In this document: positions 28,775 to 48,336 of the stretch, in pieces
How the letters are laid out: every line of letters starts with the position of its first letter
Numbering within the stretch: the stretch's first letter is position 1
NCBI RefSeq assembly: GCF_002836775.1
Contig: NZ_PJAQ01000043.1
Coordinates: 185,350 to 249,349 of the forward strand
Direction of reading: 5' to 3'
From: Colwellia sp. 12G3
GTDB lineage: Bacteria; Pseudomonadota; Gammaproteobacteria; Enterobacterales; Alteromonadaceae
DNA: 64,000 bases
The notes under the pieces: generated by a model
Seen by the model: only the letters and a program-made list of their open reading frames with translations
Database searches by the model: none
What the model was told of the DNA's origin: nothing
Program-made: the position numbers and the translations under genes

Positions 28775-28865
28775 GGTGAGATGGCTGAGTGGTCGAAAGC
28801 ACCGGTCTTGAAAACCGGCAAGGGTTTGTAGCCCTTCTAGAGTTCAAATCTCTATCTCACCGCCA
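28775..28865 (+). tRNA. tRNA-Ser (anticodon UGA), copy 1
   Basis: This 91-nt class II tRNA has an acceptor stem GGTGAGA/TCTCACC, discriminator G and encoded CCA. The anticodon stem is CCGGT/ACCGG with loop CTTGAAA, giving anticodon UGA. A long variable arm (AAGGG/CCCTT) is present, as in all tRNA-Ser. An identical gene lies at 48026-48116, with about 120 bp of similar upstream DNA. Confidence 0.96.
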
Positions 28866-28875
28866 TATTAAAAAG

Positions 28876-28907
28876 AACCCGTTAATCGAAAGATTAACGG
28901 GTTTTTT
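28876..28907 (+). terminator. rho-independent terminator of tRNA-Ser copy 1
   Basis: The arms AACCCGTTAATC and GATTAACGGGTT are capped by a GAAA tetraloop and followed by a T-run. The same hairpin recurs behind relics at 39282-39309 and 41997-42026 and behind the second tRNA. Confidence 0.92.
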
Positions 28908-28935
28908 GCTTTTTTAAGCTAACAATATAAAACAA

Positions 28936-28990
28936 CGGGTTTATAGCGGCAAATCTTCGAGTAGAGTTTAAATCTTTATCTCACCGCCGC
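28936..28990 (+). repeat. decayed tRNA-Ser 3' half (relic)
   Basis: The stretch restarts within the variable arm (GGGTTTATAGC), has altered intervening bases, and returns with a near-perfect T-arm and acceptor end (AGAGTTTAAATCTTTATCTC, then ACCGCC). No 5' half exists, so it cannot be a functional tRNA. It lies only 70 bp behind the intact gene. Confidence 0.75.
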
Positions 28991-29465
28991 ATTTTATGGA
29001 TAGGTCTATGTTTTTAGAAGGTTTTTTTACACCTATTACTTTTTGAACCGTCAAAGAGACCGTCATTTATATTCGTTACAAATAAATTGGTTTTTCTAGC
29101 GTTAGTTGCTGACCTATCTCAACAAGTACCACAAAGAAGACATAATTTAGGTGCGTACTTATCACAATAAATAGTCCTCTATGCCAATAGGTCATTATGA
29201 CTTTTACGTTTTACGAAAAACTTTACAACAAAGAATTATGAATTGATTAAATTGGATCGCTCGAACATCTTTTGTAGCTATAGAATTTTTTCTTATCTGA
29301 GGGCATAAACCAGTGAGCATTATTAAAGTCAGTAGTTGATTTAATGCTCTCATAATTAGCCTATTTCAACAGCGGTCTAATTAAGCTTTAAACTTATTAA
29401 GTAACTAGCTATTCGGTTAAAATCGTAGAAGCTTAATAGTCCTTTTAAATAAAACATCGATTCAG
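28991..29465. other. gene-free stretch behind the first tRNA relic
   Basis: This AT-rich DNA of 475 bp has stop codons in all frames and no long inverted repeat or recognisable gene fragment. It separates the tRNA end from the HTH-receiver gene. Confidence 0.6.
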
Positions 29466-30023
29466 TTAATCTCCTATAAAGGATTCCACCGCTCGTTTTA
29501 ACACAGATAATTTTATTGGTTTTATTAAAAATGCATTAGCACCTGAAGCAATAATTTTATCTTGATGTTCTTGTTGTGAAAGTCCAGACATAGCTATAAT
29601 GGGAGTATCTTTAGTCTCTTCATTTTCTCTGATATATTTGCATACAGCAAAACCATCAATATCAGGCATAACTAAATCGAGAAAAATAAGACTTGGTTTG
29701 ATATTCTCTATCATGCTCCCAGCTTCAAAGCCGCTATTGGCAACTTCAACCCCAAACTCGGGATATAACACTTCAATAAACTCTACCAATAAATCGGCAT
29801 GTTGTTTGTCATCTTCTACTATGACAATAGTTTTACCTTTTTTAGCAACTAACTTACCTTCAGTTAATCTCTCTACTTCAGAGCGTTCAAACCTGCGATG
29901 GCCCCCAGGAGTGGTAATAAACTTTAAACGCCCGTCTTTAGCCCAGAATCTAACAGTTATAGGCGACACGCTTAACAGTTTCCCAACTTGTGCTGGAGTA
30001 AGTAACTTTTCTGGATTATTCAA
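29466..30023 (-). CDS. MerR/excisionase-type HTH fused to a receiver domain
   Basis: This 185-residue protein has residues 5-55 as a helix-turn-helix of the MerR/excisionase type (LTPAQVGKLLSVSPITVRFW, with the GGHRRF wing). Residues 65-183 are a receiver with IVEDD, phosphoacceptor Asp116 (LIFLDLVMPD) and Lys in FLIKPIK. DNA binding at the N-terminus and phosphorylation at the C-terminus is the reverse of the usual response regulator order. No cognate kinase is adjacent; the sensors at 30593-38570 are candidates. The target genes are unknown. Confidence 0.88.
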   Translation of the reverse strand: MNNPEKLLTPAQVGKLLSVSPITVRFWAKDGRLKFITTPGGHRRFERSEVERLTEGKLVAKKGKTIVIVEDDKQHADLLVEFIEVLYPEFGVEVANSGFEAGSMIENIKPSLIFLDLVMPDIDGFAVCKYIRENEETKDTPIIAMSGLSQQEHQDKIIASGANAFLIKPIKLSVLKRAVESFIGD

Positions 30024-30131
30024 TTTGTTTAATTCTCAAATATATTAAAGTAATTTGCTAAGAAATAATTGATTTCAGTAAAATCTATCATATTACTTTA
30101 AAAGTTAATATAGCGATATCGTTTTTATCGA

Positions 30132-30359
30132 TTGCATGTTCAACAATATCGTTTACAATCTATTTTTTTTGAGCGGTTGGGAGAAAATATTAAGTTATTG
30201 ATGCCAAAATCAAGAGCCGTAAAACATGACTCTTACCTAGAGAGTTATCAAAAAACTAAAGAAGCTAAACTTATAGGTAAAGGCGGTAGCGTAATAGTGC
30301 GTAATAAAAATGGTCAAGAGTTTCCTATTTACTTAGCCATTGCTCAATTTGAAAATTGA
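30132..30359 (+). pseudogene. PAS-domain fragment
   Basis: This 75-codon frame can only start at TTG. From about residue 14 it matches the second half of a FixL-type PAS domain (GENIKLLMP, HDSYLESYQKTKEAKLIGKG, GQEFPIYLAIA) and then stops. The first half of the PAS fold and any output domain are missing. It is most simply a relic of a larger sensor, lying next to an intact PAS chemoreceptor gene. Confidence 0.6.
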
Positions 30360-30592
30360 TTAAATGATTTTCATAGCAATATTAATTAAAACTATGGCAC
30401 GTTTACACCATACCACTGTTATTACGTTTTGTAGCAGTCCTAACAAACATTATTGTAGTAAATGACTGCGCCCGAATAACGGGTTCGTTTTACTTGAATT
30501 GATAAGGTTTATGGCAATTTGGGTTAGCCAGAATATATCGATAGTCTTTATCTTTTTTTGTGGCTCTACAATTAAACAGGAATTTAAGAATA

Positions 30593-32134
30593 ATGAATAA
30601 TCGTTTCAATAATAACGAAACTAGGTTTGCTACTACTGAGCAATTAGTATCAATTACTGACCTCGATGGGAAAATTACTTATGCGAACCCAGAGTTCTGC
30701 AAGGTTGCTGGATATGAACTTGAGGAATTAGTAGGGCAACATCATAATATTGTTCGCCACCCAAATATGCCTAAAGCTGCATTTTCGGATCTATGGGAAA
30801 AACTTAAACAAGGTGATTCATGGCGAGGGATGGTAAAAAACCGTTGTAAAAATGGTGGTTTTTATTGGGTTGATGCCTATGTGACTCCTTTATATGAAAA
30901 GGGGTCTATAAAAGGCTATCAGTCAGTTAGAACATGTCCCACAGAAGAGCAAAAAATTAAAGCTCAACAACTTTATGACACGTTAAATAGCGGTAAATCC
31001 ATACGTGATATTAGATCGAATATCAGCTTGAAGCGACTTTTTGCCACAATGATTATTATATTATCGTGCATGATTAATTGGATATACGTGGGCTCTATCA
31101 TCTCAATTGTCATCTTATTAATGTCTTTTATATTAGTTTTTATAACTTTTTCAGAAGAGCTAGTCGCTTTTCCAAATGCAACGAAAAAAATCAAATTGTT
31201 GTTTGATAGTCCGTCACGCATCATATATTCAGGAAAAGGGTTAACAAATATTCTCAATTATCCCGTAGAGCTATATAAAGCACGCGTTGGAACTATACTG
31301 GGTAGAAGTAGTGATTCAGGAAGAGTGCTTGTAAACCTAGCAAGTGAACTGGAAAAAGTATCGAGCGAAATGCTTGAAGGTATCAATGATGAAAACTCAC
31401 ATTTAGCGCAATTTGCTACGGCAATTACCGAAATGAGTGCGACGATTGATGAGGTTAGTAGCAATACAACTCAAACCCATGACAAAGTTATAAATATTCA
31501 AAATGAATGTAAACAAAATATTGAAGTGATTGAAGTTAGTCAAAACAGAATACATAATTTAACTGGGGATGTCGAAAATGCAGCCACGAATGCAATAACT
31601 TTAGTGACAGACGTTGATAAAATCTCTACCGTTATGTCTGAAATTCAGGGCATTGCTGATCAAACAAACTTGTTAGCTTTGAATGCTGCGATAGAGGCTG
31701 CGAGAGCTGGCGAACAAGGACGTGGTTTTGCTGTGGTTGCTGATGAAGTAAGAACACTGGCAAGTAGAACGCAAGATGCAACGGTTCAAATTCAGACTTC
31801 AGTTCAAAAGTTGCAAACAACCTTAAAAGAGTGGAGCCAAGTAATGCTTGTTAATAAATCTAACGCCGAAAAATGTTCTGAAGATACAGTGAATATCAAA
31901 TCTGCAATGGAAAGTATTATTGTGAATGTTACTGATGTGAGTGATATGACAGCACAAATTGCTACAGCAACAGAAGAGCAAAGCGTGGTAGCGAATCAAA
32001 TCAATCAAAGTATTCTTAACATTGATGAAATATCTAAAAACAACGCTTTGTTGGCACAAAAAGTCAATAAAACCGGTGTTGATGTATACGAAAACGCGAC
32101 AATTATCGATGCGTTAAGCGCAACATTTAAATAA
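30593..32134 (+). CDS. PAS-containing methyl-accepting chemotaxis protein (Aer-like)
   Basis: This 513-residue receptor has an N-terminal PAS domain (about 15-125) with the Aer-type blocks [11 protein letters not shown] and [12 protein letters not shown], then a hydrophobic pair (about 150-195), then a methyl-accepting signalling domain with the tip [20 protein letters not shown]. There is no periplasmic sensor domain, so it should sense redox or oxygen from the cytoplasm through the PAS, perhaps with FAD. The ATG at 30593 gives the family start; a GTG at 30560 would add 11 residues. Confidence 0.92.
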
Positions 32135-32248
32135 TAGAATAGGGGAGTGCTTAATACAACTGCCCTTACCGAAGATATTATTCAAGCCAACAATATTTTT
32201 GTTTGCAAGTAATTTATACATAACTTTACTCGATTATGTATTTTAAGG

Positions 32249-35200
32249 ATGTTTGTGAAAAAGTTATTTAACCCGGCTATAAATGTAATGAACAATCTAA
32301 GTTACCCTCGTAAGTTTATGTTACTTGGGGGACTTTCTCTCCTAGCATTATTGATTGTTTCAATTTCTTTAATCAGATATTTATCAGGGTCAATCAATAC
32401 AGCTAATTTGCAATTAGAAGGTATTCATCAGGCTCAAAAGACATCACAACTGATTCATTCACTACAACAACATAGAGGGATTTCTACAGCTGTTTTTTCA
32501 GGTGTTAATGAAAGTCCTAATCATCTTCTATCAATTAATAAAAAAGTCGTTGATACCCTCAACGTTCTTAGTACTGACTTGCCGTTAGAGTTAAAGGAAA
32601 TAGCAAAATGGTCTTCTATTATTCATCAGTGGGAATATTTAAATACTAACGGGCTTACTTTAGGGCTAGATGAGAGTTTGCATTTACATAAAGAATTAAT
32701 TAACAATATCAATTCTTTACAGCTAAATTTGGCTGACTACTATTATTTGTTAGTCATGGATGATCTGGACTCCTATTATCTAACCAATAGTTTCTTATTC
32801 ACAGTTCCGATCACATTAGAGCTGCTAGGACAAGCGCGTGCTGTTGGTGTTTCATATTTAGTGAATAAAAGTACAAAAAATAAAAATACCATAATAAAAT
32901 CCTTATCGAATACCATCGTCCCATTAGGCGTGTTCAAAGAGAATATACGTAAGATTAAAAGGGAACTGATTTCGGACGGAGAAAGTATTTCAGCTCAAGC
33001 TCTAATTAAAACAATCCAGAACCATACAAAAGTCACCTTAGACGAAATATTAGCCGATACAACGTCTTTAAGTCCTTTAACATTTTATGATGACTCAACT
33101 TCCGTTATTGATAAAGGGTATGATTTTTTAGATAACTCACTTTACTTTACACTACGGAGCTTACTTCACAGCAAAGTTAATCAGGCAAACACTCAATTAA
33201 TCTTGAGTATTGGTTTTTCGTCAACGCTATTTATTATTGTCCTTTATTTTATAGTAGGACTGTATTTCTCAACAATTAGAAGTATAAATTATTTAATTAA
33301 AGTAACGGACGATTTTTACGGTGGGGATCTTGATGCTCGTGTTACGCTTTATACGAATGATGAGCTAAATAATCTTGCGATTGGATTTAATGAAATGGCT
33401 GAATCTTTTCAAAAATTACTGATTGATAAGGAAGAAATAAGCACAAGATTACGCGCTATTATTGATAATTCACCAATAGGAATTTGGTTTGCAGGTATAG
33501 ATGGTCGTTACCACTTTGTAAATAAAACATTCTGTACCTTAGCCGGAATAGAAGAAAAAGACATGCTAGAAACGCCTATATCTAAATTAGCCCATTTATT
33601 GGGAGATGAGATGGCACAGCATTGTTTCGACTCCGATATAGCGGCCTTAGGACAAGATGTTCCTCATGTTTCCTATGAAAAAATCCCCCGTTTAAATAAA
33701 AAACCATACCAGCTTGAAATAACAAAAGTAAAATTGCTAAATACACAGGGTGAAGTTATTGGTTTGATAGGGATCAGCAACGATATAACAGATAAACGCC
33801 AACAAGAAGATGATTTAAAACTTGCAGATATGGTGTATCAAAATAGTTCTGAAGCAATGATGATCACTAATGTTGATAATGAGATTGTGGCGATTAACCC
33901 TGCTTTATCTAACATCACTGGTTATAGCAAAGATGAACTAATAGGAAAAGACCCCAAAATATTTAGTTCGGGTAAACAAAGCCACCAGTTTTACCAATCA
34001 ATGTGGGAGGAATTACAACTAACAGGAAGCTGGCAAGGTGAAATTTGGAATACCAAAAAAAATGGCAGTGACTATGTCGAATGGATTTCAATTAACACCA
34101 TTTATGATGATTATGGCAAAGTTTTCAGACGAATTGCATTATTTTCAGATATTACTGAAAAGAAAGAGGCGGATGAATTGATATTAAGGCAAGCTAATTA
34201 TGACAGCCTAACGAAACTCCCCAACCGAAGAATGTTTATTGATCGGTTGGAGCAAGAAATCAAAGTATCACATCGTAAGAAACAAGAATTCGCTTTAATT
34301 TTTATTGACATAGATAACTTTAAAATAATTAATGACAGTATGGGTCATGATTATGGTGATGCACTTCTTGTCGAAGTAGGGAAAAGAATTACTCATTGTA
34401 TTCGAGAAGCAGATACTGTTGCTCGAATAGGTGGTGATGAATTTACAATTATTTTGTCTGACTTATCGGAACTATATAATGTTGAATCTATTTGCCAAAA
34501 AATATTAATAGCCCTAAACAAACCTTATTATATATCTGAAATGCCGACATATATATCTGCTAGCATAGGCATAACAGTCTCTCCAAATGATGGCAATACT
34601 ACTTTGGAGTTATTTAAGAATGCAGATCAAGCCATGTATCTTGCTAAGAGTCTTGGGCGTAATAGATTTTGTTATTTTACCGCATCAATGCAAGAAGAAG
34701 CACTAAACAATTTAGCATTAATGAATGACTTGCGTAAAGCCATTAGCTTGAATCAACTTGCTGTATTTTATCAACCTATTGTCGAATTACAAACAGGTAT
34801 TATTCGTAAAGCAGAAGCCCTTTTACGTTGGAAACATCCTGTTCGCGGCATGGTGAGTCCCGCAGAATTTATACCTATGGCTGAAGAATCAGGCTTAATC
34901 GTAGAAATTGGTGACTGGGTCTTTAAAGAAACAGTTCAGCAGATTAAAAAATGCAAAAAACAGCTCGGTTTAGACATACAAATTAGTGTCAATAAGTCAC
35001 CTGTACAATTTAGAGAAACAACCATTCAATTAGATTGGCTAAGCTATCTTACTGAAAATGAATTATCAGGGGAAAGCATTGTTATTGAAATAACAGAAGG
35101 TCTATTAATGGATAATAATACGAGCACCATAGAGCGACTTTCTCAGTTCAGAGCGGCTGATATTGAGCTGTCTATGGATGATTTTGGTACAGGGTATTCG

Positions 35201-35524
35201 TCACTATCGTACTTGAAAAAATTTAACCTTGATTATCTAAAAATTGATCAGTCATTTACTAAAAACCTAGCCCCTGGCTCAGTTGATATGATTTTATCAG
35301 AAGCTATTATCACAATGGCTCAGAAGTTAGGGTTAAGAGTTATAGCTGAAGGAATTGAAACAAAAGAACAAATGAAGTTACTCATGGATTCTGGATGTGA
35401 TTATGGCCAAGGTTATTACTTCTCAAGACCTATACCTGGAGATGAATTTATGCAGTTATTATCTCGAACTAACCATTTCCTGAATTCGAATAGTCTAGGA
35501 TTAAACATTGAAAATCACAGTTAA
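32249..35524 (+). CDS. membrane cyclic di-GMP enzyme: NIT-HAMP-PAS-PAS-GGDEF-EAL
   Basis: This 1091-residue protein has a membrane segment (about 25-45), a periplasmic NIT-like domain (QKTSQLIHSLQQHRGIS resembles nitrate/nitrite-sensing domains), a second membrane segment (about 318-345) and a HAMP linker. Two PAS domains (about 400-510 and 525-640) follow, then GGDEF (motif near 728) and EAL (EALLRW near 854; DDFGTGYSSL later). Both catalytic motifs look intact, so synthesis and breakdown of cyclic di-GMP are both possible. An ATG at 32249 abuts its AAGG; a GTG at 32255 has better ribosome-site spacing and may be the true start. Confidence 0.9.
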   Translation: MFVKKLFNPAINVMNNLSYPRKFMLLGGLSLLALLIVSISLIRYLSGSINTANLQLEGIHQAQKTSQLIHSLQQHRGISTAVFSGVNESPNHLLSINKKVVDTLNVLSTDLPLELKEIAKWSSIIHQWEYLNTNGLTLGLDESLHLHKELINNINSLQLNLADYYYLLVMDDLDSYYLTNSFLFTVPITLELLGQARAVGVSYLVNKSTKNKNTIIKSLSNTIVPLGVFKENIRKIKRELISDGESISAQALIKTIQNHTKVTLDEILADTTSLSPLTFYDDSTSVIDKGYDFLDNSLYFTLRSLLHSKVNQANTQLILSIGFSSTLFIIVLYFIVGLYFSTIRSINYLIKVTDDFYGGDLDARVTLYTNDELNNLAIGFNEMAESFQKLLIDKEEISTRLRAIIDNSPIGIWFAGIDGRYHFVNKTFCTLAGIEEKDMLETPISKLAHLLGDEMAQHCFDSDIAALGQDVPHVSYEKIPRLNKKPYQLEITKVKLLNTQGEVIGLIGISNDITDKRQQEDDLKLADMVYQNSSEAMMITNVDNEIVAINPALSNITGYSKDELIGKDPKIFSSGKQSHQFYQSMWEELQLTGSWQGEIWNTKKNGSDYVEWISINTIYDDYGKVFRRIALFSDITEKKEADELILRQANYDSLTKLPNRRMFIDRLEQEIKVSHRKKQEFALIFIDIDNFKIINDSMGHDYGDALLVEVGKRITHCIREADTVARIGGDEFTIILSDLSELYNVESICQKILIALNKPYYISEMPTYISASIGITVSPNDGNTTLELFKNADQAMYLAKSLGRNRFCYFTASMQEEALNNLALMNDLRKAISLNQLAVFYQPIVELQTGIIRKAEALLRWKHPVRGMVSPAEFIPMAEESGLIVEIGDWVFKETVQQIKKCKKQLGLDIQISVNKSPVQFRETTIQLDWLSYLTENELSGESIVIEITEGLLMDNNTSTIERLSQFRAADIELSMDDFGTGYSSLSYLKKFNLDYLKIDQSFTKNLAPGSVDMILSEAIITMAQKLGLRVIAEGIETKEQMKLLMDSGCDYGQGYYFSRPIPGDEFMQLLSRTNHFLNSNSLGLNIENHS

Positions 35525-36203
35525 ATAATTATAATTTTGGACTACATAAATTAACTAGTGATTACATGAAAAAGTAAAAACGACATACTGATTTGAGCAT
35601 GTATTAATCTTTTTTTAACGAAGATAAATTAACACATTTATCACAAATCCAATGTAATTCTAATGTTATATATTCGATTAAATTGATTTCATATACTTTA
35701 GATTTACCCATAAAAATAAATGAAAGGTATCGTTAAAGGCGATTTCAATAATAAACCTATGTGTATTGATAGAGTTTTTTATCCTATTAATGTAATAAAA
35801 AATTATTGATTTATCTTGGTTTTTGATGCTATTCCACTGATATTAATAGTTTTCACATATACCCTTAAGCTTTATTATAAAGGTAAAGGAATAGTTATTT
35901 CCCAGCTCTCATATTCATACAATTTTCTCCGCCACATTAAAATAATCCGCTATCCGAAATGTTAGCGGATTTTTACTTTCTATATTTTGATATTGTTAAA
36001 AAGTTTGTATTAAAAAAATCAGATTACTATCATAAACCAAATTACTTTGGTGATTTCAGTTGTGGTTTTAAAAATTAAATTAATTGAAAACAGTATTAAG
36101 GATTACTTTTTATGCAATATAGTCCTTTCACTCTGAACAAATCTATAATTAGGATGGTCAGATCATATGCCAATTTCATACGAATATTGTGCACTCATTA
36201 TTC
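35525..36203. other. gene-free stretch between two sensor genes
   Basis: This 679-bp AT-rich DNA lies between convergent sensor genes. The only structure seen is the tRNA-like tail with hairpin at 35901-35975. No coding stretch is supported. Confidence 0.6.
35901..35975 (+). repeat. tRNA-like 3' tail with terminator hairpin (relic)
   Basis: A tail ending TTTTCTCCGCCA then CATTAA resembles the 3' end of a tRNA-Ser plus its trailer. The hairpin AATCCGCTA/TAGCGGATT with T-run (35944-35975) follows. The rest of a tRNA cannot be folded. It matches the layout of the other relics but not their exact hairpin sequence. Confidence 0.5.
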
Positions 36204-38570: not shown

Positions 38571-39128
38571 TTATTAGCTCGAATAATCATTGAACATGTG
38601 AGATTAACATCATTTTTTCATAAATTGACTATATAGGAAATTAAAATACGTCCGTAGAACAGTTAATTTAACGTATGGGATAATTGCCTAACTATAGGTC
38701 ACATAGACTAATAAATGAATTAGCATCAAAAAACACATACCTTTATCTATGGAGGACGACCGTTATCACAAATTTGCAAGCTTTATGGGTTTATTGACCT
38801 ATGACCGTTCTAGATCAAAATATACAAATGTTTCAGTATAAATTTCCAAATGCTAATTTCCCCAAAGTAGTATTAGTTTGCATTAGGAAATTAATGCAAC
38901 GCATCATGAAATCATCGGGTTCAAATGTATTCTTGACAAAAGTAAACATAAGAAGTCAATCTATATAATGTTTGGCAATCTCAAACATTATGCGTAGTCA
39001 CATATTTATTAAAATCTATAATAAACAGCTCAAGTTATTTTATAAACTGTTTAATATATACGCTTTAGTTTTATATAATATCTAGCCTAAGGGCAATTTT
39101 ATTGAATAAAACCAGTGCCCATACTCGT
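38571..39128. other. gene-free upstream region of the CHASE kinase
   Basis: This 558 bp of AT-rich DNA must contain the promoter of the minus-strand kinase gene. All frames are broken and no gene fragment is recognised. It is bounded on the right by three tandem tRNA-end relics. Confidence 0.55.
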
Positions 39129-39187
39129 CCCATTCTGCCCGCCACATTCTAAGAAACCGCAACTTTAACAAGTCGCGGTTTTTTTTT
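39129..39187 (+). repeat. tRNA-like tail with hairpin, family B copy 1
   Basis: CCCATTCTGCCC-GCCA is followed by a short spacer and a hairpin AACCGC/GCGGTT with a nine-T run. A close copy lies at 44011-44068. It looks like a tRNA 3' end with terminator, but the tRNA species cannot be identified. Confidence 0.6.
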
Positions 39188-39215: not shown

Positions 39216-39309
39216 AAAGGGTTTGTAGCGTTAAACCTTCGAGTAGAGTTCAAATCTCTATCTCGCCGCCACATTAAGAAAAGCCCGTTAATCGAAAGAT
39301 TAACGGGCT
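39216..39309 (+). repeat. tRNA-Ser 3' half plus terminator (relic)
   Basis: AAGGGTTTGTAGC of the variable arm is intact, 15 bases are replaced, and then AGAGTTCAAATCTCTATCTC and CGCCA follow with one change (A to G in the acceptor). The hairpin AGCCCGTTAATC-GAAA-GATTAACGGGCT with T-run is nearly the tRNA-Ser terminator. No 5' half is present. It is the best preserved relic in the window. Confidence 0.8.
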
Positions 39310-39345
39310 TTTTGATTTCTGCTGTTTATAAAAGCTAAACAATGA

Positions 39346-39397
39346 GTGTATAGCGCTAAACCCCACATAGAGTTCTAATATCTATCGCACCGCTACA
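39346..39397 (+). repeat. strongly decayed tRNA-Ser 3' half (relic)
   Basis: The order GTATAGCGCTAAACC, TAGAGTTCTAATATCTAT and CGCACCGCTACA follows the tRNA-Ser 3' half with many changes. There is no hairpin behind it. It lies between the preceding relic and the 3' end of radD. Confidence 0.55.
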
Positions 39398-39416
39398 TCC
39401 ATATAACCCATTAGGT

Positions 39417-41309
39417 TTATCTTAGCTCATTAGCTTTTCGATATTTACCTTGGTAGTCAAAAAGTCTGTCTTTAATACGCCAGTAGAATTTTTGCTTTCT
39501 GGCAACGACAAAGTCAGGACAAGGCAATAGGTTTGCTAACTTTAAGGCTTGTTCAATATTAGTCACTTCAAACGATTCAGTAGAGCCCAATTGAACACTG
39601 ATTTTAGCGCTAAGGCGTTTAGAAAAAATATCATTGAACGTTTTAACTTGATTAGGCATAGCGAAGTCAAAAGATTCACTGAGTTCAGTGCCTTCCTCGT
39701 CATGGTAAGTGATTTTTAACTTATCAGCTCCCCCTTTGTCACTGAGTTTGTCACTGTCCTTGCCATTAACTCGGGTTAAATTAAGACCTGCGCAGCGAAT
39801 AATTTTTGAATCTTTAAGTTGCAGTGCCTTTTTTAACATATCATCGGGGTCAACCAAGACCTCATGACACTGTAAGCAGTTACGAGCAGCTATGTCATTT
39901 TCACCACCGCAGTGAGGACACTCTTTAAATACAAAACGATAGTCACATTGACTCTGGCTTTCTACTTGGTATGCTTGTTCTTCACTGCCAGTATCGACGA
40001 GGCCTTTGCATCGTCGGCCGTAGTGCTCCACTAAATAACCATCATCATCACAAATGCCCCAAAATATATTGGGAAATTCACAACTTGGGCAAACAACTTG
40101 CACTGGCTGACTTTTACTATTCGGCTTTTTCTCTCCGACTTCTGGATGATAGAGGTCAAAATCATTACCGGTATAGTCAATTACCAAGCAATCTTTTTTG
40201 TTATCACTCAAACGCAGACCACGACCGATGATTTGCTGATAGAGACTAACCGATTGTGTTGGACGTAATATCGCAATCATATCGACATGGGGCGCATCAA
40301 AGCCAGTGGTTAATACTGAAACATTAACCAGGTATTTAATTTCTTTACGTTTGAATGCCTTAATTAACTGATCGCGCTCAGTGTTGTCGGTAGCCCCGGT
40401 AATTAACGCACTCAATGTTACGGGTAAATAACTAAAGACTTCCTTTGCATGCTCAACTGTAGCGGCAAATACCATAATACCTTGACGTTTATGGCCTAAC
40501 TCAATGACCTGTTCAATAATGCCTTGAGTCACCCGGGGATGTTTGTTTAATAGATGATTAATATCCGTAGGGCTATAGTCGCCAGAAGCGTTTGCTCGCA
40601 GGCTACTAAAATCGTAGTGTTCTATGGTGGCATCGACTAAATTGGGTTCGGTTAAATACTGGCGTTTAATTAAGTAGCTTAGCGGAAGTTCATAAATACA
40701 GTGCTCAAAAGGCCGCTTTTCTTCACTTCGCATGAAACCACGATAATGCTTTTTATAAATCCAGCCCATACCTAAACGGTAAGGGGTTGCGGTTAAACCC
40801 AATAATTTTACCTCGGGATTAACTTGCATCAATTTTTCAATAATTTGTTGATACTGATTACTATTGGACAGCTTGCTTTTAGCTTTATCTTTAGACTGTT
40901 CATTAGGCTTTTCATTAGACAAGTCAGGGCTAGCTAAGTTAACTCTATGACATTCGTCAATAATAATTAAGGAGTAGGGCTCACTAAAGTCATCTAGATT
41001 GCGGGCTGCCGATTGTATGCTGGCGAACGTGACTTGGTGTTGAGTTTCTTTAAGTTTTAATCCAGCAGAATAAATACCGGCAGTAACACCATAGCTTTCA
41101 AATTTTTCATGATTTTGCTCGACCAACTCTTTAACGTGAGTTAGCACGAGTATCTTTCGTCTTGCTAAGCGAGCAAGCTCGGCAATTACCAGACTTTTAC
41201 CTGACCCAGTAGGTAAAACAATCACCGCAGATTCGTTGGTTTTTCGAAAGTGCTTGAGCACCGCAGAAACGGCTTCTTGTTGATAATCTCTAAGTTGAAA
41301 AACTGCCAC
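39417..41309 (-). CDS. radD: superfamily 2 helicase RadD (YejH)
   Basis: This 630-residue DNA-repair helicase has motif I LPTGSGKSL (32-40), motif II DECH (118-121), motif VI QQIIGRGLRLS and a four-cysteine zinc site in the region of about 410-490 (CPSC, CPHCGG, CLQC). In E. coli RadD supports RecA-dependent strand exchange and double-strand break repair. It is about 45 residues longer than the E. coli protein. The ATG lies near 41309; the next gene fragment is divergent, 58 bp away. Confidence 0.92.
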   Translation of the reverse strand: MAVFQLRDYQQEAVSAVLKHFRKTNESAVIVLPTGSGKSLVIAELARLARRKILVLTHVKELVEQNHEKFESYGVTAGIYSAGLKLKETQHQVTFASIQSAARNLDDFSEPYSLIIIDECHRVNLASPDLSNEKPNEQSKDKAKSKLSNSNQYQQIIEKLMQVNPEVKLLGLTATPYRLGMGWIYKKHYRGFMRSEEKRPFEHCIYELPLSYLIKRQYLTEPNLVDATIEHYDFSSLRANASGDYSPTDINHLLNKHPRVTQGIIEQVIELGHKRQGIMVFAATVEHAKEVFSYLPVTLSALITGATDNTERDQLIKAFKRKEIKYLVNVSVLTTGFDAPHVDMIAILRPTQSVSLYQQIIGRGLRLSDNKKDCLVIDYTGNDFDLYHPEVGEKKPNSKSQPVQVVCPSCEFPNIFWGICDDDGYLVEHYGRRCKGLVDTGSEEQAYQVESQSQCDYRFVFKECPHCGGENDIAARNCLQCHEVLVDPDDMLKKALQLKDSKIIRCAGLNLTRVNGKDSDKLSDKGGADKLKITYHDEEGTELSESFDFAMPNQVKTFNDIFSKRLSAKISVQLGSTESFEVTNIEQALKLANLLPCPDFVVARKQKFYWRIKDRLFDYQGKYRKANELR

Positions 41310-41367
41310 GCAGTGCTGCTGCCTTATAGGGAACTAAAAGCGGCCATAATAGCAAAATAGCGGATAA

Positions 41368-41901
41368 GTCCAAAATTTAAAACAAACTATTTATCTGTTT
41401 TATTCTGATGTCGATATCATTGCTAAATTACGCTTAAATCAGCAAGAAGGTTGGAACAAGTTATTAAGTGAAAGCAAGCACATTAAACATTATGTCAACA
41501 ATTGTACGGTAACAGCAACGCATCCGTGGTCTCGCCCTGCATTTAGCCAAATAAGCGTGGCTGACAATGTTAGCAACTTTGTAGCTATTGGTGATGCCGC
41601 CTGTGCTTTTGACCCCATTTCGTCAATGGGCATAGGCTTTGCTATTTCTTCAGCTTGCCATGGCGCAAATGCGATAATGGCTCAGTTGAATGCTAATAAT
41701 TTAACTGCTAGTACTGCAAATGTTAATCAGGCGATAAAGCAGTATAATTTGGATTTGAAAAATCAGTTCGATAATTACCATGTACTCAAACAGCAATTTT
41801 ATCAACAAGAGCAACGTTGGTCTCAGGCACCTTTTTGGCAACGAAGAGTCCTTAATACCAGTGACCTTGAAGAGTTGGCGATTGATAATAGTATAACGTG
41901 A
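41368..41901 (+). pseudogene. C-terminal fragment of an FAD oxidoreductase (LodB/halogenase-like)
   Basis: An open frame of about 177 codons has no good start and upstream stops at 41347-41367. It carries the C-terminal FAD motif GDAACAFDPISSMGIGF, as in flavin-dependent halogenases and LodB/GoxB-type cofactor-maturation flavoproteins. The whole N-terminal half with the GxGxxG dinucleotide fold is missing, so the gene is 5'-truncated at the radD boundary. A GTG at 41557 could only give a 114-residue piece. Loss probably came with the rearrangement that placed radD here. Confidence 0.75.
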
Positions 41902-41947
41902 TTTTATTTGGACCAGATTAATCGTGTGATTGGGGTTTCGCCAAATA

Positions 41948-42026
41948 GGGTCTAAACCTTAGCAGAGTTAAGATGGCTATCTCACCGACACATTTAAAAC
42001 CCGCTAATCGAAAGCTCAGCGGGTTT
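41948..42026 (+). repeat. tRNA-Ser 3' half plus terminator (relic)
   Basis: AGGGTCTAAACC, AGAGTTAAGATGGCTATCTC and ACCGACACA follow the tRNA-Ser 3' half with changes, then the hairpin AAACCCGCT/AGCGGGTTT (41997-42026) appears, with the AATCGAAAG loop like the tRNA-Ser terminator. It lies between the flavoprotein fragment and the DUF885 gene. Confidence 0.65.
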
Positions 42027-42199
42027 ATACTTTTCAGACGTTGCATTTTATCGCTAAGGATTATTGCAAAGTTTTATAATACAGCATCTTCTACGTAGTT
42101 TTCAGGATACTCATCATAAAATTTATTCGATTATCAATAAGTTGTCTAAGGTGATATAAAAGTAACTATAAAAGTCATATAAAACAGAAACGAGCATGA

Positions 42200-44002
42200 A
42201 TGATGATAAAAAAGAAAAATAAAATGTTAAACAATATCCGAGGGTTGTGTCTTATTTTATCAACGCTCATCTTTGCGACAAACCTTATGGCTGACGATAA
42301 AGTATCAGTAAACGCGGATAAAAAGTTAGAAAAGCTGATTGCACAGCATTGGGATTATTCGATGAAAGAAAGTCCTTTATCAGCAACATCAGAAGGTATC
42401 AGCAAATATAATCATTTACTTAACCGAGTATCAAAAATTGATAATGATAGGCGACTTGCCGCGGAGACAAAATTACTGGGGCAATTAGTAAAAATTGACC
42501 CTACGCAATTGTCTGACTCCAACCGAATAAATCATCAACTATTTAAGTGGGTGATTGAAGGCTCTATAGAAAGTTACCAACTTAATTTATCACGTATTCC
42601 ACTCAATACTTTTTATAGTTTTTTTCTACAAGTATTAAGTATGAGTAATGGTTTGCCGATGAATACCGCGAAAGATTACCACGATTACATCGCAAGAATT
42701 AACGAGATACCGCGCTATTTTAATGAAAATATAACCAACATGCGATCAGGTATTCATTCCAATTTTACCCTGCCAAAAATTGTTGTTGAAGGTATTCTTC
42801 CTACGGTACAGGCACAGATATATGAAAAGCCAACGGATAGTAGTCTTTACAAACCTTTTGTGAAAATGAGCACTAAAATATCAGAAAAAGAGCAAGAACA
42901 ACTTAGAGAATCTGCCAAGAAAGCCATATCACAATCCGCAATACCTGCTTTTAGAACATTTGCCGAGTTTTTCGGCGGAGAATATTTACAGGCAGCCACA
43001 ATAACGCTTGGCGCAGAACAAATGAATAACGGTAAAGCTTATTATGCTTCTCAAATTAAAAAATATACGACATTACCTAATATCACGGCTAAAGAAATAC
43101 ACCAAACAGGACTGAGTGAAGTCAAACGCATCAAAGCCGAAATGCTTGAAATAATAAAAGAGACAAAATTTGAAGGGACATTTGAAGAATTTACCCAATA
43201 CCTGCGAACAGACCCACAGTTTTACGCAAAAACGCCAAAAGACTTGCTAAAAGAAGCAGCGTATATTGCTAAACGCATTGATTATATTATGCCTGAATAT
43301 TTTAAAACGTTACCTCGTCTACCTTATGGTGTTGTTGCTGTGCCGAAAGAAATAGCCCCTAATTATACGACTGCTTCCTATAATTCAGCCGTTGTTGGTG
43401 GAACACGTGGTGGTGCTTATTGGCTAAATACATATCAACTTGACCAACGACCATTGTATGAACTTACCGCGTTAACATTACATGAATCAGTACCTGGACA
43501 TCATCACCAATCGGCTATATCAAGTGAATTGAAAAATGTGCCTAAATTCCGTTTAGGTCTCTATTTTAGTGCCTATGGTGAAGGCTGGGGATTATATTCT
43601 GAGAAATTAGGTGTTGAAATGGGTTTATATGATACTCCTTATGATGATTTTGGCAGATTAAGTTATGAAATGTGGCGCGCTTGTCGCTTGGTCATTGATA
43701 CAGGGATACATGCAATGAAATGGAGTCGACAACAAGGAATAGATTTCTTATCAAGTAATACCTCATTATCACCAACGAATGTTAGATCTGAGGTAGACCG
43801 CTATATATCATGGCCTGGTCAGGCACTTTCCTATAAATTGGGTGAATTACACATTTGGAAGTTAAGAAAAAAGGCAGAAAAATCATTAGGGAAACAATTT
43901 GATTTACGTGAATTTCATGATGCTTTATTGAGTAATGGTGCATTGCCATTAGCTATGGTTGAAGCTGAAATAGATCGGTATATCGCCTTAAACAAAAAAT
44001 AG
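42200..44002 (+). CDS. DUF885 family exported protein (probable metallopeptidase)
   Basis: This 600-residue protein has a Sec signal peptide (basic start, LCLILSTLIFA, then NLMADD), so it is exported to the periplasm or membrane surface. DUF885 proteins are predicted zinc metallopeptidases or carboxypeptidases; the HESVPGHHHQ motif near residue 428 and the following GEGWGLYSE are the expected metal-site blocks. The substrate is unknown. Two ATGs (42200, 42203) are possible starts. It stands alone, framed by tRNA-end relics. Confidence 0.82.
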   Translation: MMIKKKNKMLNNIRGLCLILSTLIFATNLMADDKVSVNADKKLEKLIAQHWDYSMKESPLSATSEGISKYNHLLNRVSKIDNDRRLAAETKLLGQLVKIDPTQLSDSNRINHQLFKWVIEGSIESYQLNLSRIPLNTFYSFFLQVLSMSNGLPMNTAKDYHDYIARINEIPRYFNENITNMRSGIHSNFTLPKIVVEGILPTVQAQIYEKPTDSSLYKPFVKMSTKISEKEQEQLRESAKKAISQSAIPAFRTFAEFFGGEYLQAATITLGAEQMNNGKAYYASQIKKYTTLPNITAKEIHQTGLSEVKRIKAEMLEIIKETKFEGTFEEFTQYLRTDPQFYAKTPKDLLKEAAYIAKRIDYIMPEYFKTLPRLPYGVVAVPKEIAPNYTTASYNSAVVGGTRGGAYWLNTYQLDQRPLYELTALTLHESVPGHHHQSAISSELKNVPKFRLGLYFSAYGEGWGLYSEKLGVEMGLYDTPYDDFGRLSYEMWRACRLVIDTGIHAMKWSRQQGIDFLSSNTSLSPTNVRSEVDRYISWPGQALSYKLGELHIWKLRKKAEKSLGKQFDLREFHDALLSNGALPLAMVEAEIDRYIALNKK

Positions 44003-44010
44003 GAAAGAGT

Positions 44011-44068
44011 GCCCATTCTGCCCACCATATTAAGAAAACCGCAACGTTAACGCGTCGCGGTTTTTTTT
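44011..44068 (+). repeat. tRNA-like tail with hairpin, family B copy 2
   Basis: It begins 8 bp after the DUF885 stop codon with CCCATTCTGCCC-ACCA, then the hairpin AACCGC/GCGGTT with an eight-T run (44037-44068). It matches 39129-39187 almost base for base. It now serves as the terminator of the DUF885 gene. Confidence 0.65.
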
Positions 44069-44166
44069 CGATTGAATTTGATACTTTGAATGGTAACGGG
44101 AATAAGACCTTTACTATATAATATGCGCATATGCACTCATAATTTATTATTTATCACGGAATTCAC

Positions 44167-45135
44167 ATGAATTTACAACAAGCTTTATTGGCAATAGGTG
44201 ATACACGAGACAACGAATTACCTATTACGGGTCTCGAAGTAGTTAAAGAAAAATGGCTAGAATTTTATCCTGAATTAGAACGGCTGATAGATCAATTTAT
44301 CGCAGATGATACATCGTTAACCGACGATCAGCAGACCATTTTATTTTTTGGTACTTTATTGTTAGCAGAATTAAAATATTCTCCAGCTTTAGAAAAGTGT
44401 TTGCAGTTATTTTCACGTAGCGATACGTTTTTAACGCCTCTTGAAGCGGTATTTGGCGATGCGCTTACTGAATTAACACCGACCTTATTTTATAATGTGG
44501 TCGATGGTAATACACAAGCATTGTGTAATTATATTGTTGATGGTCATCAAGCGATGTATTGCAAAGCATCTGCTATAGAAGCGGTTTTTGCTCAGTACGA
44601 AGCGGGTATTATTGATGAATTCGTATTAAGTGCACATGTAACTCGATGGCTAACTGTATTTTCGGCTTTACCGAGTTTAACCAATAGCTTTTTACTTAGC
44701 GCATTAGCCGATTCTTGCATTGAATATCAACTTGATGATTTTAAAAGTCAGTTTATTAGTTTATGTGACAAAGATTTATTTGATGAAGACCGTTTTAAAC
44801 AAGATGAAGTTAAAGTGTGGAATAGGGCAGGTACGCCTAAGTTGATTGAATCGGGTATGATTCAAACCCAATTTAATGTTGTTACCACCTTAACTGCTTG
44901 GGCTGATGATGACTCAGAAGATGAAGAACTCGATAATCTATCAAGCGAAGATCTTGAAGACTTTGATGGCTTTGATTCGTTAATGAGAGAAGGTGGTTTA
45001 TTGGCTAATATCCTGTACGACGAAAATACAATTATAGAGAACAGTGTGCCTGTTAGTTCATTACCTGTAGTTGGCCGCAATGATCCTTGCCCGTGTGGCA
45101 GTGGAAAGAAATATAAAAAGTGTTGTAGAGTTTAG
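44167..45135 (+). CDS. DUF1186 protein with C-terminal SEC-C zinc motif
   Basis: This 322-residue acidic cytosolic protein has a helical body resembling DUF1186. The C-terminus GRNDPCPCGSGKKYKKCC is a SEC-C motif like that of SecA, which binds zinc and in SecA contacts SecB and ribosomes. The same tail is found on many otherwise unrelated proteins. A strongly acidic linker (DDDSEDEELD) precedes it. Function is not known. Confidence 0.8.
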   Translation: MNLQQALLAIGDTRDNELPITGLEVVKEKWLEFYPELERLIDQFIADDTSLTDDQQTILFFGTLLLAELKYSPALEKCLQLFSRSDTFLTPLEAVFGDALTELTPTLFYNVVDGNTQALCNYIVDGHQAMYCKASAIEAVFAQYEAGIIDEFVLSAHVTRWLTVFSALPSLTNSFLLSALADSCIEYQLDDFKSQFISLCDKDLFDEDRFKQDEVKVWNRAGTPKLIESGMIQTQFNVVTTLTAWADDDSEDEELDNLSSEDLEDFDGFDSLMREGGLLANILYDENTIIENSVPVSSLPVVGRNDPCPCGSGKKYKKCCRV

Positions 45136-45186
45136 TTTAGGTCAGTCGGCTGGAACAGCTAATTGTGCTTGTATCACTCAGACATA

Positions 45187-45216
45187 CCCGTAAGAGAGTA
45201 ATAATACTCTTACGGG
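45187..45216. terminator. inverted repeat behind the SEC-C gene
   Basis: 10-bp arms CCCGTAAGAG and CTCTTACGGG enclose a 10-nt AT loop. There is no long T-run, so it is a terminator candidate only. The rest of the 276-bp gap shows no gene. Confidence 0.6.
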
Positions 45217-45411
45217 AAATATTTGTGTAACCACTTTATGTTGCTAGTTCATTCACGGCAATGGCAAGTAACGGCTCTAGATAGGCTTAATGCTAAAAGG
45301 TAATCTTGTTGATTAAGGTCAAGTAAACCCTATAAAACACGTCTATTCATATTCAATAGTGCAAGATCAGTAGTAAAATAATAGCCCTCATTAATAAACT
45401 AAGTAGTTATC

Positions 45412-45978
45412 ATGATAGTTGACCTAAATAGCCGTTACGGCTTAAATCCTGCGCATAGTGAAGTAGTAGAGGCGTGTAAAATTGTTGAGCCATGCGATAC
45501 GTTAGATATGGGTTGTTCTAATGGACGTAATGCAGTGTATCTCGGCCAACTCGGATTTAACGTTACTGCCATAGATACTAATCCTAGTGCCATTGATACG
45601 CTGAAAAATATTAGTGTTGAAGAAAATATGAATAATATTAAGGCTCACGTGTATGACATTAATAATGCGAGTCTTGGTGAAGATTATGGCTTTATTTCTT
45701 GTACTGTCACTTTAATGTTCATCGACCCCACTCGTGTTGATACTATTATTGCTGATATGCATAAGCACACTCTTGCTGGCGGTTATAATCTGATTGTTTG
45801 CGCTATGAGCACTGAAGAACACCCATGCCCAGTCCCTTTCCCTTATACTCTAAAAGCTGGCCAGTTGCGTGAGGCTTATGAAGGGTGGGAGCTGATTAAG
45901 TACAATGAAAATGTAGGTACTATGCACAATGGCGCGAAATTGCAGTTTGCGACTATATTGGCGCGTAAACCGAGCTAA
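45412..45978 (+). CDS. tehB: SAM-dependent methyltransferase, TehB family
   Basis: This 188-residue class I methyltransferase has the SAM motif LDMGCSNGRNAVYLGQLGF near residues 31-50 and the acidic motif II TAIDTNPSA. The closest known family is TehB, which detoxifies tellurite by methylation. There is no tehA beside it, so tellurite as a natural substrate is not assured. It may be co-transcribed with the radical-SAM gene 100 bp downstream. Confidence 0.8.
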   Translation: MIVDLNSRYGLNPAHSEVVEACKIVEPCDTLDMGCSNGRNAVYLGQLGFNVTAIDTNPSAIDTLKNISVEENMNNIKAHVYDINNASLGEDYGFISCTVTLMFIDPTRVDTIIADMHKHTLAGGYNLIVCAMSTEEHPCPVPFPYTLKAGQLREAYEGWELIKYNENVGTMHNGAKLQFATILARKPS

Positions 45979-46078
45979 AACATATCCATATTTCACCACT
46001 CATTAAATAAGATTGCTGAACAACGTCAGCAATCGCAGTATAATAGTGCAATATTATTCAAGGTCTTTAAAATCTAGT

Positions 46079-47749
46079 ATGGCAGAGCAACAAAATCATC
46101 CCGAATTAACCGTTATACAAATTCCTCTCACGGAAGAAAATAGGCTTGATTCAATAAACCCAGCGCCAATAAAGCCAGATTTAATAAACAAGAGTGCATC
46201 TGTTACTGATCAAAGTAGTCGAAAAGTTAATAAAGCCTCGCCTAAGATTGTACTTGCGACACTTAACGCAAGGTACTTTCATACCAGTTTTGGTTTACGT
46301 TACCTTTACGCAAATTTAAAAGAGTTACAGGAATATTGCGTAATAAAAGAGTTTATTATTCAAACTCGCGCCATTGATATTGTTGAACAAATATTAGCAT
46401 CAAAACCCGATATTGTAGGTTTTGGTGTTTATATCTGGAACATAGTTGAAACAACGGACGTTGTTAGCTTATTAAAAGTAATAGCACCAGAGATTAAGGT
46501 TATTTTAGGTGGGCCAGAAGTCAGTTATGAAACTGAGCAGCAAGCTATTGTAGCTAGTGCCGATTATGTATTAACTGGTCCAGCAGATATAAGTTTTTAT
46601 CAACTGTGTAAAGATATACTCAATGAAACGCCTCCCGACAGAAAAATTCTTAACTCAAAGCCCGTAGCGTTAGAAGAAATAGCATTGCCTTATCAGTATT
46701 ATACGGATGAAGACTTAAAAAACAGACTGCTCTATGTTGAAGCGTCGCGTGGTTGCCCCTTTAAATGTGAGTTCTGTTTATCGTCTTTAGATAAAACATC
46801 CACTCCCTTTGATCTCACATTATTTCTTGAGCAAATGGAAATACTCTATGAACGTGGAGCACGAAATTTTAAATTTATTGATAGAACCTTTAATTTAAAC
46901 ATAACAACCACCATGCAAATTATGCAGTTTTTCTTAGATAGAATGACTGACGATCTATACCTGCATTTTGAAGTAGTACCCGATCATTTACCTAGAAAAT
47001 TAAAAGCCTTGTTAGCTCAGTTTCCTGAAGGCAGTTTACAATTTGAAATAGGGATACAAACCTTTAACACAGAGGTTCAGGCTAATATTAGCCGTAAGCA
47101 AAATAACGCCAAATCAAAAGATAACTTAATCTGGTTAAGAGACAATACCTCTGCACATATTCATGCTGATCTTATTTTTGGTTTACCTGGAGAAACATTC
47201 GACACGTTTAAAGACAGCTTCAACCAACTCTATCACTGTCGCCCTCATGAAATTCAAATGGGTATTTTGAAACGTTTGAAAGGTAGTCCAATTATAAGAC
47301 ACACAGAAGCCTTTGATCTGCGTTTCAATCCATTGCCGCCATTTAATATATTAAGTACTGACAGGGTGAGCTTTACCACCATGCAACGCATTAACCGCTT
47401 TGCGCGATATTGGGACATGATTGGTAATTCTGGCCGTTTTAAATACTCATTACCCCATATACTGTCTGATAAACCTTTTGATGATTTTATGGCGATTACC
47501 GAATGGATTTTTAATAAAACGGGACAAATTCATAAAATTAGCCTGAAAAAATTATTTGAGCTAATTGCACAATCAGTAGAAGCTTTATTTCCTGAAAAGC
47601 ATCTGCTTGTTATTTCAAAGATTGAACTAGACTACGATGCATCGAAATTAAAAAGTATTTTTAGTGGGCTTAATCTTTATGCGGTTGAACAGACTGAAAA
47701 AAATAGCAAGAACAATTCATTACAACGACAACAACGTCATATGAGTTAA
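46079..47749 (+). CDS. B12-binding radical SAM protein
   Basis: This 556-residue enzyme has an N-terminal cobalamin-binding-like domain (about 55-175, GFGVYIWNIVET, LGGPEVSYE), then a radical-SAM core with the CxxxCxxC cluster motif RGCPFKCEFC near residue 225, and a DUF4080-type C-terminus. It probably performs a radical methylation or rearrangement; the substrate is unknown. The ATG at 46079 is preferred over an upstream start at 46013, because the upstream part has no domain and a TATAAT lies within it. Confidence 0.85.
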   Translation: MAEQQNHPELTVIQIPLTEENRLDSINPAPIKPDLINKSASVTDQSSRKVNKASPKIVLATLNARYFHTSFGLRYLYANLKELQEYCVIKEFIIQTRAIDIVEQILASKPDIVGFGVYIWNIVETTDVVSLLKVIAPEIKVILGGPEVSYETEQQAIVASADYVLTGPADISFYQLCKDILNETPPDRKILNSKPVALEEIALPYQYYTDEDLKNRLLYVEASRGCPFKCEFCLSSLDKTSTPFDLTLFLEQMEILYERGARNFKFIDRTFNLNITTTMQIMQFFLDRMTDDLYLHFEVVPDHLPRKLKALLAQFPEGSLQFEIGIQTFNTEVQANISRKQNNAKSKDNLIWLRDNTSAHIHADLIFGLPGETFDTFKDSFNQLYHCRPHEIQMGILKRLKGSPIIRHTEAFDLRFNPLPPFNILSTDRVSFTTMQRINRFARYWDMIGNSGRFKYSLPHILSDKPFDDFMAITEWIFNKTGQIHKISLKKLFELIAQSVEALFPEKHLLVISKIELDYDASKLKSIFSGLNLYAVEQTEKNSKNNSLQRQQRHMS

Positions 47750-48025
47750 TGGCTACGTATCACATAATTTATTCTTTGTTGTCTCAAAAGTGTCTGACCG
47801 TTGATAGAAGTAAGCTCACTGTTAAAATTAAGAGAATAGTTTACGGGTATTTGTGAATTTTATTACTAACGAGGTACGTTAGCTTCATTTTTAGTGTGTA
47901 TTTGTTTGTTTTTTTAGCAAACAAACTTAAATATTAAAATAGTGCTTTACAACTTATTGGCGAGACATTAGTATTCGCCTCGTTCTCAAGCAAGCATTGT
48001 TTAACTCGCTTAATTGTTAACTTCA
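47750..48025. other. upstream region of tRNA-Ser copy 2, duplicated from copy 1
   Basis: From 47908 to 48025 the DNA aligns with 28656-28774 upstream of the first tRNA-Ser, with scattered changes; the final 40 bp are nearly identical. This includes the tRNA promoter. No protein gene is present. Confidence 0.7.
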
Positions 48026-48116
48026 GGTGAGATGGCTGAGTGGTCGAAAGCACCGGTCTTGAAAACCGGCAAGGGTTTGTAGCCCTTCTAGAGTTCAAAT
48101 CTCTATCTCACCGCCA
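48026..48116 (+). tRNA. tRNA-Ser (anticodon UGA), copy 2
   Basis: It is identical over all 91 nt to the gene at 28775-28865, including the UGA anticodon, long variable arm and encoded CCA. It is complete and probably functional. Confidence 0.96.
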
Positions 48117-48126
48117 CATTAAGAAA

Positions 48127-48157
48127 AACCCGTTAATCGAAAAATTAACGGGTTTTT
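48127..48157 (+). terminator. rho-independent terminator of tRNA-Ser copy 2
   Basis: The hairpin AACCCGTTAAT/ATTAACGGGTT with a six-T run differs from the copy-1 terminator by one base in the stem-loop. The following 180 bp to 48336 show no gene. Confidence 0.9.
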
Positions 48158-48336
48158 TGTTTGCCCAGCGAAGCAGGCAAACCCGATAGGCTGAAAGATG
48201 CCTTATCACTTTCTTGATAGCTGACGTTCATCACAGATAAGGATATCTGTTTTTTGATGATGGTTTTTTATTAATCTGAATGCGAAATATGCCACCAATA
48301 TAGTCATTCTAAATATGCAGAATAAACCGTTTTACA

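Follow-up and report, generated by a model that had tools for sequence, protein, structure and literature searches.

The window analyzed here is a 64,000-nucleotide stretch of the Colwellia sp. 12G3 genome (G000; 5.06 Mb in 68 contigs) that corresponds to C30:185350-249349. It includes a segment in which two tRNA-Ser(UGA) genes bracket blocks of genes separated by decayed tRNA-like tails. We conclude, with a probability of about 0.8, that this segment belongs to an accretion island located at the tRNA-Ser(UGA) 3' end, where DNA has been added by serial site-specific integration at the motif CCACATT. Serial insertions at one tRNA, each leaving a scar, had been proposed in an earlier, sequence-only reading of this DNA. 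That proposal is now supported by gene blocks that vary and are reordered among relatives behind a conserved left flank, by breaks in homology at the CCACATT that ends the tRNA, and by an element with an integrase that sits at this tRNA end in one related genome (G025). Below, class A scars are those that resemble the tRNA 3' half, and class B ends are those in which ~55 bp unrelated to tRNA run into CGCCACATT and a terminator, as at 39088-39147 of the window.

The probable integration target, its flank, and the second tRNA copy are as follows.

27983..28600, - strand: Tag (methyladenine glycosylase), which flanks the hot spot on its constant left side (PF03352, E=2e-72)
28775..28865, + strand: tRNA-Ser(UGA) copy 1, the probable integration target (ARAGORN; Rfam RF00005, 61 bits)
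28866..28910, + strand: terminator of copy 1, directly behind the tRNA (profile match to column 93; sequence)
48026..48116, + strand: tRNA-Ser(UGA) copy 2, within the variable zone and preceded by an upstream region of its own (ARAGORN, BLAST)
48117..48160, + strand: terminator of copy 2 (profile)

The two copies are identical over their 91 nt, as had been claimed for the genes that bracket the segment, and position 48158, the previously given end of the segment, is the end of the second terminator. A third tRNA-Ser(UGA) copy lies on the minus strand at C30:312803. An Rfam scan of 27500-49000 yielded nothing above the gathering score beyond the two tRNAs. The regions upstream of the two copies (28660-28774 and 47905-48025) are alike by eye, and their last 22 bp are identical. 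Therefore, whole transcription units may have been duplicated rather than the tRNA alone.

Among relatives, this location behaves as a hot spot with a fixed left side. We refer to the arrangement Tag-tRNA-Ser(UGA)-[variable cassettes] as site alpha and to tRNA-Ser-c11-c13 as site beta. The tRNA 3' end with its terminator has matches, intact tRNAs counted, in 31 of 31 genus genomes and in 44 of 51 genomes overall. The tRNA-Ser(UGA) adjoins Tag in 20 of the 21 genomes with a fetched Tag locus, and the contig ends in the other (G018). What follows the Tag-tRNA-Ser(UGA) pair differs between genomes. The blocks are neither always present nor always in the same order in relatives: RadD occurs in 18 and SECC in 20 of 39 genus genomes, including our own, and the order is RadD-DUF885-SECC in the window, RadD-SECC-DUF885 in G010, RadD-open reading frame (ORF)-SECC in G016, and SECC-B-NERD-two ORFs-B in G052. 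Cassettes are thus present or absent at one and the same location, as in additive islands, with exceptions of placement in G011 and G015. RadD is also found directly behind tRNA-Ser(GGA) in G012 and G057 (L091, L101), and it occurs with no units in the fetched stretch in G001, G002, G011, G020, G054, and G055. At site beta, tRNA-Ser stands directly before c11 in G000, G004, G005, G007 (where the tRNA is cut by the contig end), G010, and G026; class A units separate tRNA-Ser from c11 in G019 and G022, and from c13 in G023. G025 has a single segment with the site-alpha Tag flank on one side and the site-beta c11 flank on the other.

Several side observations concern these loci. The tRNA-Ser(GGA) terminator of G057 is of the CGCAAC type found in tRNA-Ser(UGA) units. 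In the variable zone of G020 and G001, class A units are followed by homologues of TamB and TamA (L055:13172-18912, L062:7858-11886). G011 (C1, about 2.129-2.156 Mb) and G015 (C54, about 6-33 kb) appear to share a rearrangement or insertion upstream of the tRNA.

The position at which homology ends was measured at two kinds of junction. For SECC, 19 upstream regions were examined, and the 11 with a recognizable CCA junction (4 from class A and 7 from class B genomes) were used; a partial match in G001 and a second piece in G014 were not. The 28 A-versus-B pairs show an identity of 0.48 over 60 bp on the left, where the shuffled baseline is 0.50, and of 0.73 on the right. Comparing left sides within class B (6 pairs) gives 0.72 over the first 60 bp and 0.51 farther out. 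Among the RadD cassettes of G007, G010, and G026, identity is 0.80-0.85 ahead of the class B end and 0.92-0.95 across it. Past the class B end, identity is 0.54-0.64 over the next 100 bp, which hold a terminator in each case, and then 0.49-0.51. At both the SECC and the RadD junctions, homology stops at the CCA end of the tRNA (CCACATT). At SECC, the terminator sits on the conserved side of this break and therefore behaves as the left edge of the cassette that follows.

These breakpoints also bear on the possibility of a replacement-type island, in which incoming DNA would be exchanged by homologous recombination with tRNA copies and conserved flanks as anchors. Islands here do contain several complete tRNA-Ser copies, and the bracketing of one segment in G025 by the flanks of both sites would fit such an exchange. 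However, the breakpoints coincide with the tRNA end, and the shared ends of ~60 bp that bound cassettes of ~1.3-2.5 kb are probably too short for efficient homologous recombination. We therefore regard replacement as very improbable.

The scars themselves were recovered independently of the window. A tail-plus-terminator profile built from 33 units of other genomes, with zero window sequence, found all seven of the tails named in the sequence-only reading, on the + strand and with 16-85 bits. The best of 200 dinucleotide shuffles of 28866-48025 reached 11.6 bits, and none reached 15. The seven tails are thus real, and the claim that a terminator follows five of them also holds: the matches at 35926, 39138, 39222, 41952, and 44018 extend through the terminator columns, and those at 28941 and 39351 do not. 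The description of the tails as tRNA 3' halves fits the four class A scars, where BLAST places the tRNA 3' half at 28962-28988, 39244-39271, 39368-39393, and 41964-41990 (the last at E=0.014). It does not fit the tails at 39129 and 44011, which are tRNA-like only from CGCCA onward; their profile matches score 26.7 bits (at 39138) and 16.0 bits (at 44018). The other five tails are listed here with their profile scores.

28941..28994, + strand: class A scar, terminator lost (39.0 bits)
35926..35975, + strand: scar with CCACATT and terminator, arm not identified (tail 35901; 25.3 bits)
39222..39314, + strand: class A unit with tail and terminator (84.5 bits; 94% to a G008 unit)
39351..39415, + strand: class A scar, terminator deleted, abutting RadD (32.1 bits; same A-RadD junction in G026 and G017 by eye)
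41946..42029, + strand: class A scar with terminator (41.8 bits)

The window therefore holds an intact tRNA together with displaced fragments in the same orientation, and tRNA 3'-end repeats, in the form of class A, at cassette borders. A search of the whole genome for the tRNA tail plus terminator (E<=0.001) found tails only here, at the tRNA-Ser(UGA) of C30:312803, and at tRNA-Ser(GGA). Relics are thus not scattered over unrelated loci at the sensitivity of this search, which was low, with 3 of the 7 window relics recovered.

The class A scars are decayed tRNA-Ser(UGA) 3' halves in which the variable arm has been modified. The CCACATT and terminator at 35926-35975 match best to the region that follows the third tRNA copy, at 87% over 54 bp. 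In many genomes, class A units form arrays behind tRNA-Ser with a period of mostly 115-128 bp (~120-bp units). We compared 85 class A units, 4 of them from the window, drawn from 23 genomes. The nearest neighbor lies in the same genome for 34 of the 85 (500 label shuffles gave a mean of 3.5 and a maximum of 10), which indicates that the site is also shaped by tandem duplication or by one mini-element entering repeatedly. For the other 51 units, including all four window units examined, it lies in another genome, and the window unit beside RadD matches a unit beside RadD in G026.

These data address the rival view, raised in the sequence-only reading, that tRNA-terminator units spread as small repeats; they would multiply by slippage or unequal crossing-over and become scattered, with the gene blocks incidental. 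The array period and the excess of same-genome neighbors fit this view, and the part of it that stands is that ~120-bp units multiply locally in arrays. It is not the whole explanation, as it accounts neither for class B ends on different cassettes nor for the homology break at CCACATT, and the window units and 51 of the 85 overall have their nearest neighbors in other genomes. Spread as small repeats alone is thus unlikely. A known parallel is the rtT repeats of Escherichia coli tyrT, which lie in tandem behind a tRNA and include its 3' end. To our knowledge, rtT repeats do not separate gene cassettes, and a literature search on them returned nothing relevant.

The class B features of the window are as follows.

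39088..39147, + strand: class B end, intact, with a ~55-bp arm ending in CCCGCCACATT (71.6 bits)
39148..39186, + strand: CGCAAC-type terminator joined to the class B end (sequence)
44008..44031, + strand: class B end with an internal 11-bp deletion (tail 44011; sequence; identical junction in G024)
44032..44069, + strand: CGCAAC terminator, left edge of the SECC cassette (16.0 bits; same region before SECC elsewhere)

The score of the intact end comes from a model of 17 sites from relatives only, for which the shuffle maximum was 10.6. In an alignment of 22 sites, chosen from those seen, mean column identity is 83%. Among the 51 genomes searched, class B occurs in 15 of 31 genus genomes, including our own, with one weak match outside the family (E=0.006). 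An exact pattern also located class B in Thalassotalea sp. PP2-459, Pseudoalteromonas sp. SMS1, a Psychrobium metagenome-assembled genome (MAG), and a gammaproteobacterial MAG. The sample behind the last also yielded Colwellia MAGs, so that match could be contamination. Records of Colwellia psychrerythraea ND2E and GAB14E contain class B as well. In Pseudoalteromonas and Psychrobium, the class B ends are followed by CCATATT and then by unrelated terminators. In Thalassotalea, a tandem tRNA-Ser(UGA) pair stands ~10 kb upstream of class B, and to the left of this pair are homologues of Tag (65%), BaxI (81%), and GAPDH (88%); site alpha therefore exists there too. No match to class B was found in IMG/VR with an exact 22-base pattern or in phage or plasmid records with blastn.

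We also saw a decayed class B end plus terminator at C30:263.8 kb (L042:14437-14534), in the same orientation and ~30 kb past the second tRNA. The gene before this end (c54) is homologous to the gene after a class B end of G010. The island may extend well past the window segment.

The integrase evidence at this tRNA comes from G025. There, the 5.3 kb that follow the site-alpha tRNA carry a tyrosine integrase split in two, one piece with DUF6538 and the other with Phage_integrase, and close with 25 nt that match the tRNA 3' end at 24 positions. The nearest three relatives of this integrase lie directly behind tRNA-Ser(GGA) in G003, G023, and G060, the last from another genus of the family; they are 41-59% identical to the G025 integrase and 643-720 aa long (L086:5691-7622, L087:5517-7502, L134:7365-9527). 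No convincing distal tRNA-like repeat was found at these loci, only a 12-bp repeat, TATTCTGTAAAA, which in G023 bounds ~2 kb holding the integrase. The absence of a visible integrase from the segment was confirmed: our genome has 14 Phage_integrase (PF00589) matches, and none is in the window. This genome-wide recombinase search covered tyrosine recombinases (PF00589) only; serine recombinases and transposases were not searched. No autonomous element carrying class B was found in the fetched loci. A 300-aa integrase frame of G008, ~9 kb from a class B end, was not counted, as it lies beyond the c13...c12 flank genes, and G052 has a degraded integrase ~15 kb from a class B end.

Taken as a mechanism, serial integration would proceed as follows. 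Small elements would recombine at the CCACATT that ends the tRNA, probably through a tyrosine recombinase. The terminator of the incoming element would become the new terminator of the tRNA, and the older terminator would be displaced behind the element's right arm; the relics would therefore be right-end (attR-like) junctions. A class A arm copies the tRNA 3' half, whereas a class B arm is the conserved ~55-bp non-tRNA sequence; class A units additionally multiply as ~120-bp tandem repeats. The window's own blocks probably arrived by such tyrosine-recombinase integration. Most cassettes are likely non-autonomous, moved by a recombinase that acted in trans or has since been lost.

A number of observations weigh against serial integration as the full account. 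No recognizable CCACATT junction is present in 8 of the 19 SECC upstream regions, which were left out of the identities above, and CCACATT does not follow the class B ends of G017, G006, and Thalassotalea. In G011 and G015, the coordinates place Tag ~26 kb away from its nearest tRNA-Ser(UGA). The A-RadD junction is common to G000, G017, and G026, and the truncated B-SECC junction to G000 and G024; the layout is thus partly inherited, and some scars are old junctions that relatives share. Local duplication also contributes to the array units. An empty tRNA-SECC site was not found in the fetched loci, and neither a circular form nor the class B recombinase was found. The sole integrase at tRNA-Ser(UGA), that of G025, is split, and three more distant relatives of it, in G011, G017, and G058, have no tRNA in the fetched stretch. 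Finally, no PF00589 match lies inside the class B cassettes of the 20 genomes mapped (including 18 genus genomes in which class B was seen), and some contigs with class B measure just 3.5-6 kb.

Mobile integrons likewise assemble small cassettes with a shared end into arrays. This likeness raises the question of a cryptic integron, in which the genome's integron integrases would mobilize class B (or A) as an attC-like site. Colwellia sp. 12G3 does encode two of these (TIGR02249, 464 and 459 bits), at C30:37.6-38.6 kb and C11:713.4-714.3 kb, and the small cassettes do share one end. However, RNAalifold gave no supported stem in the class B alignment, with 5 pairs, none with two-sided changes, and -0.31 kcal/mol. 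In addition, the sites stand at a tRNA end rather than beside an integron integrase, and most junctions carry the tRNA-derived CCACATT. Unlike a mobile integron, this locus has no integron integrase, RNAalifold found no attC-like fold in it, and its target is the end of a tRNA. We consider a cryptic integron extremely improbable. The two integron integrase genes (L190:1640-2605, L191:1371-2339) lie far from the tRNA-Ser locus.

The gene blocks of the window are listed here; Pfam, NCBIfam, and PADLOC scans were applied to chosen ORFs of the loci.

29466..35524: sensor block of response regulator/MerR (- strand), PAS-MCP (+ strand), and PAS-GGDEF-EAL (+ strand), singletons among the loci compared
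36204..38570, - strand: CHASE-PAS hybrid histidine kinase cassette, ending at the class B site (domain scan)
39417..41309, - strand: RadD helicase cassette (NF053632, 885 bits; in 18/39 genus genomes)
41389..41901, + strand: C-terminal LodB remnant of a LodA-LodB cassette (81% to LodB residues 237-403 of G054)
42200..44002, + strand: DUF885 cassette (PF05960, E=3e-166)
44167..47749, + strand: SECC, TehB, and B12-radical-SAM genes (SECC in 20/39 genus genomes)

The ORF previously called a flavoprotein fragment is indeed a fragment; its identity is corrected to the last ~167 residues of LodB (81% to complete LodB). In G054, a complete LodA-LodB has class A units on one side and a class B end on the other; the stub at 41389-41901 is a remnant of that kind of cassette, which is complete at a like site there. 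The class B cassettes of the window carry the CHASE kinase and DUF885. Elsewhere, the cargo of class B cassettes includes Gabija (G003 and G016, where the best GajA and GajB models reach E<1e-230), NERD and NYN proteins in an ABC-3C-type set (G002), an nSTAND-SIR2 protein (G019), DEAD helicases (G007, G023), RadD (G007, G010, G016, G026), and LodA-LodB (G054).

A broader and more tentative proposal, which we consider somewhat doubtful at present, is as follows. Class B could mark a so far undescribed, integrase-less cassette system of the Alteromonadales, with one conserved ~55-bp right arm and a left-end terminator that would replace that of the tRNA. A recombinase acting in trans would insert the cassettes, one at a time, at the CCA end of tRNA-Ser(UGA), which would then serve as an integron-like accretion platform that collects anti-phage systems along with other cargo.

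Additive flexible genomic islands at tRNA genes have been described in Alteromonas (PMC4119200), "Candidatus Actinomarinales" (PMC7771536), and "Candidatus Methylopumilus" (PMC10872708). As here, the portions of these reports on which we draw describe a conserved tRNA target, strain-specific added cassettes, and partial-tRNA direct repeats that mark insertions; unlike here, those portions describe no shared non-tRNA end, terminator exchange, or ~120-bp tail-terminator arrays. The tRNA-integrated islands cataloged by Islander (PMC4383910) resemble this locus in having an intact tRNA at one end and a displaced fragment at the other, and tandem arrays of them are known. In contrast, Islander, as outlined in that report, requires an integrase per island; the window has none, and none turned up in the class B cassettes examined. 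Tycheposons are also linked to a tRNA, as is this island, which has a tRNA at its border and two complete tRNA-Ser copies; as described in the relevant part of PMC10872708, they differ in carrying a tyrosine recombinase, for which the window has no PF00589 match. A literature search found no report of a Colwellia tRNA-Ser genomic island; its single match concerned Vibrio. Titles and abstract openings on tRNA hot spots, partial tRNAs, cassettes, and additive islands mention no shared end like class B. This comparison suggests that the class B end and the terminator exchange are what is new, whereas tRNA-anchored additive islands are known.

In the portion of PMC9897764 on which we draw, tRNA fragments are treated as by-products of integration. 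At this locus, such tRNA scraps would be explained as recombination junctions. The class B end together with CCACATT would offer a compact, searchable mark for cassettes that integrase-based island finders reject, and the missing class B recombinase becomes a concrete search target. Known defense systems such as Gabija lie beside uncharacterized genes, and the site is therefore a place to seek new defense systems. Moreover, most junctions carry their own terminator, which suggests how the tRNA gene may stay expressible despite repeated invasion.

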